Of a DNA stretch of 22,305 nt, positions 18,240 to 20,236 are shown one piece after another. The stretch is from Bacteroidales bacterium (GTDB lineage: Bacteria; Bacteroidota; Bacteroidia; Bacteroidales; WCHB1-69): contig JAFXPL010000154.1 in the NCBI GenBank assembly GCA_017527945.1, forward strand, positions 1 through 22,305, given 5' to 3'. Each line of letters opens with the position of its first letter. The first letter of the stretch is position 1. The notes beneath the pieces are model-generated. The model was not told the DNA's origin. It saw only the letters and a list, made by a program, of their open reading frames with translations, and searched no databases. The translations under genes were made by a program, and so were the position numbers.

Positions 18240-18259
18240 CCGGCTAAAAATTGAGCCTT

Positions 18260-19543
18260 ATGACCATCAACATCATCACCTTGGGCTGTTCCAAGAACAT
18301 CGTCGATTCGGAAGTCATGGCCGCGCAGCTGCACCGCAACGGGCACGAGCTCTACTACGAGAGTGCGCAGAAGTCCGACATCGTCATCATCAACACATGC
18401 AGTTTCATCCACGACGCGCGTGAGGAGTCCGTGAACGAGATTCTGAACCAGATTGAGCGCAAGAAACGCCGTCAGGTCAAGAAGTTGTACGTTGTGGGAT
18501 GCCTCGTGCAGCGCAATAGGGCGGAATTGCAGGAGGCCCTGCCCGAGGTGGATGGTTTTTTCACCTTCGCGGAATTGCCGAAGCTATTGGAGTCTCCTGA
18601 TTTCCAATTGCTTGGCACATCCGACAGAATGCTCTCCACGCCCCGCCACTACGCCTACCTCAAGATCTCCGAGGGCTGTGACCATCAGTGCTCCTACTGC
18701 TCCATCCCGCTCATCCGCGACCGGCAGGTCTCCAAACCGATTCCGCTTCTCGTCGAGGAGGCGCAGCGTTTGGCCGACCAAGGGGTGAAAGAGCTGATGC
18801 TGATAGCCCAGGACCTCACCTACTACGGCATCGACCGCAGCGGCAAGCGCGAGCTCGCCGACCTGATGGACAAACTCGCACAGGTGAACGGCATCCAGTG
18901 GATTCGGCTGCATTACGCCTACCCGCTGAACTTCCCCTACGAGATTCTGGAGGTAATGAAGCAGTACCCGCAATATTGCCGCTACTTGGACATCCCGTTC
19001 CAGCACATCAGCGACGACATCCTGCAGAGTATGCGGCGCGGCGGCAGTTCGGCCTACATCTACGACCTCATCGCGCGTATCCGCGAGACGATTCCCGGCA
19101 TCGCGCTGCGCACTACGCTGATCTCCGGCTACCCGACCGAGACCCGCGAACAGCACAAGGAACTCGTGGAGTTCGTGCGCCGCAACCGCTTCGAGCGGCT
19201 CGGGGTCTTCGCCTACTCGCGCGAGGACGACACGCCCGCCTACGCCCTCGGCGACCCCGTCAAGGCGTCTGAAAAGAACAAACGGGTGAACGAAATCATG
19301 AAATTGCAGGAGACAATCTCCCACGAAATCAACCAAACCCGCGTCGGCACCACGATGAAGGTGCTGATCGACAGCGAAGAGCAGGACTGCTACATCGGCC
19401 GCACCGAGTTCGACTCACCCGATGTCGATAACGATGTTTTCATCGACAAGAACCAACCGCTGACCGTTGGCGAATTCTACAACGTGGAAATCACCGACGC
19501 CGCGGAATATGATTTGTTCGGGACTGTTTGCCCGCAGGCCTAA
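18260..19543 (+). CDS. rimO: Ribosomal protein S12 methylthiotransferase RimO
   Basis: A 427-residue radical SAM methylthiotransferase, expected to add a methylthio group to the conserved aspartate of ribosomal protein S12 (Asp89 in E. coli). The N-terminal UPF0004 domain binds one 4Fe-4S cluster through Cys10 (TLGCSKN), Cys47 (NTCSF) and Cys81 (VVGCLVQR). The radical SAM cluster uses Cys140, Cys144 and Cys147 (CDHQCSYC). A TRAM domain ends the chain ('MKVLIDSEEQDCYIGRTEFDSPDVDN'...). The motif after CSIP reads LIRDRQVS, where these enzymes usually have RG: residue 154 is Asp (GAC), one transition from Gly. The ATG at 18260 is chosen over the upstream TTG. The last four codons (CPQA) and the stop lie in a palindromic repeat. 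Confidence 0.95.
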   Translation: MTINIITLGCSKNIVDSEVMAAQLHRNGHELYYESAQKSDIVIINTCSFIHDAREESVNEILNQIERKKRRQVKKLYVVGCLVQRNRAELQEALPEVDGFFTFAELPKLLESPDFQLLGTSDRMLSTPRHYAYLKISEGCDHQCSYCSIPLIRDRQVSKPIPLLVEEAQRLADQGVKELMLIAQDLTYYGIDRSGKRELADLMDKLAQVNGIQWIRLHYAYPLNFPYEILEVMKQYPQYCRYLDIPFQHISDDILQSMRRGGSSAYIYDLIARIRETIPGIALRTTLISGYPTETREQHKELVEFVRRNRFERLGVFAYSREDDTPAYALGDPVKASEKNKRVNEIMKLQETISHEINQTRVGTTMKVLIDSEEQDCYIGRTEFDSPDVDNDVFIDKNQPLTVGEFYNVEITDAAEYDLFGTVCPQA

Positions 19544-19731
19544 CGGCCTGCGAAAAATCGCGCGTGAAACCCCATTTGCTACCGAGCCCTTCAGCCCTAA
19601 CGGGCTGGTTTGCGGACGGAGCATTTCCCCATATTAGTTATAAAACAGGCACGGGCAGGCCGTTAGGTCTGCCGGGCTTGGTAGTAGGGATGGGCGGCCA
19701 CGATGAGTTCCGCACGTCGTTAGGTGTGCGG
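19533..19731. repeat. Composite palindromic element, four hairpins with TAAC/GTTA loops
   Basis: Hairpin 1: arms CGCAGGCC/GGCCTGCG (19533-19540/19545-19552), loop TAAC. Hairpin 2: CAGCCC/GGGCTG (19592-19597/19602-19607), loop TAAC. Hairpin 3: GGCAGGCC/GGTCTGCC (19654-19661/19666-19673), loop GTTA. Hairpin 4: CCGCACGTC/GGTGTGCGG (19710-19718/19723-19731), loop GTTA, with two G-T pairs. Hairpins 1-2 and 3-4 are thus in opposite orientation. CTACCGAGCCC (19579-19589) and GGGCTTGGTAG (19674-19684) form a 10-of-11 inverted repeat between them. The layout is REP/BIME-like or a MITE-like non-autonomous element. It lies between the convergent rimO and minus-strand lipoprotein genes. No transposase is present. 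Confidence 0.85.
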
Positions 19732-19738
19732 GGAAATT

Positions 19739-20236
19739 TTATTCCCGAAATTCGACTATGTGATGATATACGTAACCGGTAACCGTATCAAACACGAAAA
19801 AGTGATGATGCGGCGTCCTGCAGCAGTGATAGTATAGCAGATGATCCTCCGGTAGGGTTTCCCATTCGTCAAAAAAGTCGATTCTCTGATGAGGGCTCTG
19901 TTTTTCCAAAATATAATTTCGATCACAACTGATAAATGCGGAGTCAGGCGTGATTTCTGTGTAGGTACATTCTTTGGCGATAATAGCAGACTCCACTTGC
20001 GCCGGTGTGCCTTGATACCGAAACCACATATTGTAGAGAGGCCATTCTTCGAAAACCCCGCAATCATCGTCTTGACCCAAAGAAGGATAAAGTTGCCTGA
20101 CATGGTATTCTTCGAAATTAGAACTTGTCCTCAACCAATCCACCACTTTATTCCGAACTCTTGTGCAGGATGCGGTAAGACAAAGTGTAAAGAGTATCAG
20201 TAATATTTTAGGTCTGCACATTTTAAAAGTATTCAT
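19739..20236 (-). CDS. Lipoprotein translationally coupled to hicA
   Basis: A 165-residue protein. MCRPKILLILFTLCLTASC (residues 6-24) is a lipoprotein signal with lipobox TASC (Cys24 from the first ATG, Cys19 if the ATG at 20221 is used). The mature part is rich in aromatic residues, His and Cys ('DDDCGVFEEWPLYNMWFRYQG', 'HLLYYHCCRTPHHHFFVFDT', 'VYHHIVEFRE') and matches no family I recognise. From the first ATG it overlaps the hicA stop by four bases (ATGA, 20233-20236), implying translational coupling. No terminator is seen after it apart from the palindromic element, which ends seven bases beyond its stop. Confidence 0.72.
   Translation of the reverse strand: MNTFKMCRPKILLILFTLCLTASCTRVRNKVVDWLRTSSNFEEYHVRQLYPSLGQDDDCGVFEEWPLYNMWFRYQGTPAQVESAIIAKECTYTEITPDSAFISCDRNYILEKQSPHQRIDFFDEWETLPEDHLLYYHCCRTPHHHFFVFDTVTGYVYHHIVEFRE

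Follow-up and report, generated by a model that had tools for sequence, protein, structure and literature searches.

A BIME-like pair of inverted hairpin repeats at the rimO 3' end of a Bacteroidales genome, and the occurrence of its relatives beside one clade of Y1 transposase genes

Four hairpins lie close together at positions 19533-19731 of a stretch of Bacteroidales DNA of 22,305 nucleotides (the window), and the question they raise is to what kind of element they belong and what may have spread it. The original prediction held that all four share a four-base loop, and this could be read directly from the sequence. Hairpin H1 (19533-19552; CGCAGGCC-TAAC-GGCCTGCG) has a perfect stem of 8 bp and H2 (19592-19607; CAGCCC-TAAC-GGGCTG) a stem of 6 bp, while on the plus strand H3 (19654-19673; GGCAGGCC-GTTA-GGTCTGCC) has 8 bp with one G.T pair and H4 (19710-19731; CCGCACGTC-GTTA-GGTGTGCGG) has 9 bp with two. 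The loops had been described as two TAAC and two GTTA; they are present, but they are not two kinds, since TAAC and GTTA are the same loop on opposite strands, and there is thus one hairpin type in inverted orientation. An inverted repeat matching at 10 of 11 positions, CTACCGAGCCC (19579-19589) against GGGCTTGGTAG (19674-19684), was likewise found as described. It holds the two copies of a short box, GCTCGGTAG on the minus strand (19579-19587) and GCTTGGTAG on the plus strand (19676-19684). Each box belongs to a half-unit composed of an inner and an outer hairpin, the left one (19527-19619, minus strand) with H2 as its inner hairpin, of type C, and H1 as its outer hairpin, and the right one (19644-19736, plus strand) with H3, of type B, inside and H4 outside. 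The two half-units face outwards and are inverted with respect to each other, which is the arrangement of a BIME or REPIN, two inverted REP sequences; other copies of the family, unlike the inverted pair in the window, are single or in tandem. The folding energy of the region is -99.5 kcal/mol against a shuffle mean of -73.5 kcal/mol (z -5.65; none of 200 shuffles as good), and when the window half-units were folded as DNA the GTTA strand was favoured in both (-19.0 against -12.4 and -21.3 against -19.5 kcal/mol). No Rfam 15 family matched in the window at gathering score, a plasmid collection gave a single weak 35-base match (E 0.2) and a phage collection gave none.

The left edge of the element lies within a gene. 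The plus-strand open reading frame at 18251-19543, which we take to be rimO from its UPF0004, Radical_SAM and TRAM domains, has its 3' end inside the element, its TAA stop codon (19541-19543) being part of the H1 loop. On the minus strand, an ORF that has no Pfam match ends at position 19739. Thus the two reading frames do converge, as had been proposed, but the element does not lie cleanly between their stop codons, because that of rimO sits in the H1 loop. The copy in the rimO 3' end supplies this stop codon and, we believe, has no further function; for annotation, it means that a REP hairpin can provide the stop codon of a conserved gene.

Relatives were used for all genome work. A search of genome contigs with the rimO product gave 28 loci, of which 24 were from Bacteroidales or Bacteroidetes MAGs with 76-97% identity in the best segment, and L023, L026, L027 and L028 were more distant; goat, sheep, yak, reindeer, red deer and water buffalo are named in the titles of several of these relatives. 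The rimO 3' flank was compared at 22 of the loci. Five of them (L002, L003, L004, L005 and L009), which have the same rimO end as the window, lack the 146 bp at 19549-19694, a segment bordered in the window by CGGCC at 19544-19548 and again at 19695-19699. All five share the resulting junction with the window and retain the left arm, the loop and half the right arm of H1 together with the whole of H4. Since they keep these parts, deletion by slippage between the CGGCC repeats is simpler than an insertion in the window, and the 146-bp absence would most simply reflect a deletion in an ancestor of the five. A one-hairpin, sister-type unit occupies the rimO site at nine further loci (L006, L007, L008, L010, L012, L013, L014, L021 and L024), and among the remaining eight there is a half-unit at L017 (42.5 bits) and, at L001, a questionable relic that scores 23.9 bits (E 0.0019).

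The order of parts in a half-unit, read on the GTTA strand, is an inner hairpin, a GCTYGGTAG box, a linker of 23-30 nt and an outer hairpin, with 2-4 nt between inner hairpin and box in the window. Regular expressions found 40 half-units in the sequences examined, and in 33 of these an outer hairpin could be recognised, 23-30 nt beyond the box; the classes were assigned by eye and diverged copies were missed. A covariance model, R1, was built from 32 aligned half-units, with one copy at L031 excluded, and it scores the left and right half-units of the window at 86.6 and 79.9 bits, both copies being in its training set. In the alignment 93.4% of the 544 cells (17 pairs in 32 half-units) are paired. 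Both partners have changed together in 27 cells, a number that none of 500 shuffles reached, and the signal was lost when the partners were slid against each other, so that the compensatory stem changes looked for at the outset are found. Examples are pair 81/92 (CG in 22, GC in 10), pair 17/26 (GU in 19, CG in 12) and pair 82/91 (GU in 26, GC in 6). Neither the number of pairs that change nor that of pair types stood above the shuffles, 497 of 500 of which reach them. The outermost pairs 12/31, 13/30 and 76/97 are open in 12, 13 and 10 of the 32 rows, respectively. Non-Watson-Crick cells in the core are wobbles on the GTTA strand, and outer position 13/30 has C-A cells that would wobble on the opposite strand. 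At a site with aligned solo-type units the stem reads GCCCC/GGGGC, GTCCC/GGGAC, GCCTC/GAGGC or GTCTC/GAGAC according to species. Among 56 solo-type units, some of them orthologs or members of one array, conservation falls to near background right after GGTAGA.

The pairing of inner with outer hairpin types differs between copies. The window has C with outerG and B with outerC; L030 and both units at L078 (G006:C12) have B with outerG and C with outerC. Combinations swapped in this way, as though exchanged at the box, set L050, L054 and the window apart from L030 and L078, and either an inversion between boxes or a strand exchange at boxes would yield them.

Had the element been single-copy and absent from relatives, the idea of a dispersed repeat would have failed. 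Counted in relatives, R1 matches occur in 28 of 29 related Bacteroidales genomes, with 2-29 in each and 280 in total by our own sum; up to 149 candidates were scored per genome, several of the genomes had supplied training copies, and 19 of the 29 came from the rimO loci and 10 had been pre-chosen as box-positive. G006 and G010 together (1.57 Mb) hold 16 of these matches, one interrupted by a contig end. A loose hairpin pattern matched 149 times, in 18 of 19 genomes, and its reversed control 54 times (our own sum), a sizeable background. The sister one-hairpin pattern CCGNNAGG-N7-GCTCGGTAG was present in 34 of 99 family genomes and absent from the reversed control. The exact box CTACCGAGC-N{5,10}-CCTNNCGG, searched in 395 Bacteroidota genomes, gave 16 matches in G006 and five singles elsewhere against 29 in the control by our own count, and in that sample the box sequence is therefore not above noise outside the family.

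Some further observations were made on these copies. Same-orientation half-units lie about 1.1-1.2 kb apart at L031 (G008:C35), G010:C5 and G011:C103, those at L031 between similar small lipoprotein-like genes. A palindrome containing GAGCGCAGCGA directly follows GGTAG in several copies. A second dispersed repeat, at about 1200-1394 of L040, has many matches in the genomes and occurs also near boxes at G010:C9 and G006:C16. Spacers in relatives (L172, L174, L176 and others) carry short tandem repeats of GTTAGTAGTTAGCA or GTGATTT and differ in length between orthologs.

Genes for Y1 transposases were also sought, a REP-associated Y1 gene having been named as a thing to look for. Pfam Y1_Tnp gave 45 matches in 17 of 19 genomes, and 30 loci were examined. 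Four of them (L059, L067, L070 and L078) are flanked by R1 matches, L078 having a full two-half unit on each side of the Y1 gene and L070, on both sides, boxes at a spacing of 118 bp. Relatives thus do contain Y1 genes set between hairpins of this kind, the arrangement of a REPtron, in which a Y1 gene is flanked by its own repeat family; the window is without such a gene. In a tree of the 30 proteins the four Y1s with window-type units form a clade (support 98/98), five Y1s with arrays of about 52 bp form another (100/98), and the two are sisters (93/90); the repeat-type labels were assigned after the flanks had been viewed, and the program flagged long branches in other parts of the tree. The proteins at L064 and L080, whose flanks lack GCTYGGTAG and carry CTGTAG at the same spacing, join both repeat types in a clade of 11 loci (98/96). 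A hairpin followed after 6-9 nt by GTAG was found at all 11 of these loci and at none of the 19 other Y1 loci of the same genomes, with GTAG 7-9 nt after the hairpin in 49 cases. The family is repeated, structured and often intergenic, and of the Y1 clades present in these genomes it flanks a single one. G010 has 18 R1 matches, yet its Y1 genes L061 and L077, the two that were read of three Y1 matches there, fall outside the matching clade. At L062 the repeated hairpins around the Y1 gene, which belongs to another clade, are of a different kind and lack GTAG.

The motif YxxxQxxHH is present in 29 of the 30 in-family Y1 proteins, L075 being cut short, and so is not special to the GTAG clade; it was also found in 66 of 68 out-of-family proteins. 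In an alignment of 47 Y1 proteins the HUH motif and Y115-Q119-H122-H123 are conserved, with Y, Q and both H invariant, and the window-type Y1 has NH[VI]H as its HUH motif. Two Y1 proteins scored against NCBIfam were just above the cut-off of 55 bits for IS200/IS605 (59.2 and 62.6 bits) and well below that for REP_Tyr_transpos. The L078 Y1, a protein of 152 aa, had no match in a PDB sequence search at 1e-3. Of 198 Bacteroidota genomes sampled, 86 have a relative of it at E 1e-20, and at E 0.001 its relatives number 7175 database proteins, a count in which subclasses are not sorted singly. Motif and length, the only two features used, would place the clade in subclass 1.2 of TnpA-Y1.

Whether such a system still moves its repeats bears on the alternative that survives best, namely that the element is what remains of an old and now dead repeat family, altered only by recombination and deletion, with the Y1 genes as passengers. 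The deleted forms at five rimO loci and the weak L001 relic would suit such decay, and a recent insertion is nowhere proven: contig synteny between G006 and G010 and three ortholog queries gave presence and absence only, with neither a clean empty site nor a target duplication. Of 14 right flanks aligned at one window-type site, three (G006, G010 and G011) contain the half-unit and in the other 11 it was not seen, but the left flanks do not align and the difference is not proof of insertion. Y1 reading frames that are intact, judged by the motif, at 29 of 30 in-family loci speak against an inert family, as do near-identical copies within one genome, for example at L078 and L031, and we regard it as unlikely that the family is dead in this sense.

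The position of the boxes among genes bears on a second alternative. For 46 boxes of all types in G006 and G010, placed with a simple ORF caller, 14 were inside ORF calls, many of these over arrays or beside Y1 genes, one was at a contig end, and 24 lay between codirectional, four between convergent and three between divergent genes. The 32 boxes outside ORF calls stand against spacers of at least 60 nt that make up only 6.1% of the sequence, and the family is, like a canonical REP, a short repeated palindrome lying largely between genes. For the last three groups, 31 intergenic boxes lying between two genes, the length-weighted expectation was 55.5% codirectional, 15.6% convergent and 28.9% divergent. 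The proposed preference for convergent gene ends finds no support in the four convergent boxes among 31, three of them in one array. Divergent spacers were rarer than expected (3/31, p 0.010) and codirectional ones commoner (p 0.010); many boxes are clustered, and among lone elements only, 17 were codirectional, one convergent and two divergent (2/20, p 0.044). The avoidance of divergent spacers would fit hairpins retained as host signals, at transcript ends or in protection of mRNA 3' ends, with the Y1 link a by-product of the site where the repeats originated. So would the paired changes that preserve the stem between species at the aligned solo site, and so would H4 with its tail (19708-19741), the only terminator-like site on the plus strand within 19300-20000, a region for which shuffles average 0.7 such sites. 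On the other side, no terminator-like site was reported at H1-H3, boxes occur in both orientations relative to codirectional genes, and the tie to a single Y1 clade, at 11 of 11 loci as against 0 of 19 in the same genomes, also tells against it, and we judge this explanation decidedly unlikely. A MITE, a deleted derivative of a transposon with inverted ends that moves by a double-strand route and duplicates its target, could account for the nested inverted repeats and for CGGCC at each edge of the missing 146 bp, but it is very improbable given the H1 part and entire H4 kept by the five relatives, where CGGCC slippage is simpler, and half-units that stand alone or in direct tandem arrays, which a terminal-inverted-repeat unit does not predict.

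The REP/BIME type of architecture originally proposed is instead borne out by the inverted half-units, the repeat copies in relatives, the compensatory changes and the Y1 flanks. In our view the element is likely to be one copy, BIME/REPIN-like in form, from a REP family whose spread is or once was the work of a single-strand Y1 (HUH) transposase bearing the subclass 1.2 motif. In such a mechanism the GTTA/GGTAG strand would fold when single-stranded, a Y1 dimer would bind the hairpins and GGTAG would mark the cut; the hairpin before GGTAG would correspond to the right end of an IS200/IS605 element, and the linker with the hairpin that follows to its left end. The transposing unit would then be linker, hairpin(s) and GGTAG, which would explain both the array periods of about 52 bp or 115-118 bp and the occurrence of full units to either side of a Y1 gene. 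Mobility and GTAG cleavage, like any role in RNA, are inferred here.

A system confined to this family was considered and dropped, the same architecture being found more widely with other hairpins. Sixty-eight high-ranking Y1 loci of a longer list, from 48 genomes and none from G006, made up of 29 loci from the search of the 198 genomes and 39 of a further 40 retrieved, were scanned with hairpins called by script, GTAG counted and GTGG left out, and mononucleotide shuffles as controls. A hairpin followed after 6-9 nt by GTAG was present at 25 of the 68 loci, in 22 of the 48 genomes, against 3 of 340 shuffled, and the hairpin sequences were unrelated; 43 of the 68 were without the pattern at the thresholds used. 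GTAG lay 7-9 nt after the hairpin in 60 cases, other offsets up to 38 nt having 0-3 each and offsets of 39-40 nt 7-8. Before a hairpin GTAG formed a broad peak at about 19-27 nt, compared with 23-29 nt in the family. The stricter GGTAG was found at 11 of 68 loci against 1 of 204 shuffled. Three box patterns of other families gave 29 copies in 5-6 genomes each (control 1), and as 15 of the 29 lie within 1 kb of a Y1 gene, genome-wide dispersal there is modest. We propose tentatively, as a possibility somewhat short of an even chance, that a Y1 clade with the subclass 1.2 motif acts across Bacteroidota on its own REP arrays of the form hairpin-GTAG-hairpin, with GTAG as the cut site between right-end and left-end hairpins. 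If true, REPtrons would include one more kind, intermediate between IS200/IS605 and TnpAREP, with the canonical guide motif occupying the position of the cleavage site.

Comparison with known systems places the repeat as one of the REP/RAYT kind and as a candidate substrate for an orphan group of Y1 proteins. With the REP, BIME and REPIN sequences served by TnpAREP (RAYT) of the E. coli and Stenotrophomonas type it shares multicopy short hairpins, often intergenic and in inverted pairs, the presence of GTAG, repeats that also flank Y1 genes and a hairpin type matched to the Y1 clade. In the available text of one report, TnpAREP requires GTAG at the 5' foot of the hairpin, where it is a proposed guide, and cuts at CT or CA (PMC8266576). 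In canonical REPs GTAG lies 0-2 nt before the hairpin foot and the Y1 motif is Y---NP, whereas here GTAG follows one hairpin by 7-9 nt and precedes the next by about 19-29 nt, and the Y1 motif is Y---Q--HH. A GTAG 0-2 nt 5' of a hairpin foot was seen in two cases outside the family and in none within it, and the repeat is not filed as a canonical REP because foot position and Y motif, when tested, both differed. IS200/IS605 elements of the IS608 type share an IS200-type Y1 by NCBIfam. The IS608 TnpA, in the portion of the account available, binds a hairpin near each end and uses guides, with TTAC as its left-flank and TCAA as its right-end cut site (PMC5934647); on that account the motif here, shortly after one hairpin and a linker before another, stands where IS608 cut sites lie. 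In contrast to IS200/IS605, there are many REP-like repeats without a Y1 gene, and the motif is Y---Q--HH and not Y---Q alone.

The GTAG/CGTC repeats of Di Nocera et al. (2013) are alike in their GTAG motif, their dimers and clusters and the GT wobbles in their stems, and differ in that the motif is at one palindrome end; in the sections of that article available, the taxa given for GTAG families are Proteobacteria, Cyanobacteria, Chloroflexi and the PVC group, without Bacteroidetes, for which CGTC repeats and no GTAG repeats are reported (PMC3733652). In open-licence PMC literature, represented mostly by titles and the openings of abstracts, no recognisable description of this repeat-Y1 association was found. 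The closest protein group is TnpA-Y1 subclass 1.2 of Quentin et al. (2018), which, as far as the accessible part of that survey goes, shares Y---Q--HH, a length of about 150 aa and occurrence in Bacteroidetes, and for which DH[IV]H and a length of about 148 aa are stated, as against the NH[VI]H of the window-type Y1 (PMC6006769). The same part of the survey tabulates subclass 1.2 (YxxxQxxHH) as without REP, whereas a clade bearing that motif is here flanked by REP-like arrays. Y1 relatives are common in Bacteroidota and no REP had been tabulated, in that part of the survey, for the subclass with this motif (PMC6006769), and a candidate substrate of fixed spacing makes the activity of such a Y1 directly testable. 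The comparison bears, too, on the origin of REP transposases from IS200/IS605, because GTAG occurs in both settings, at different places.
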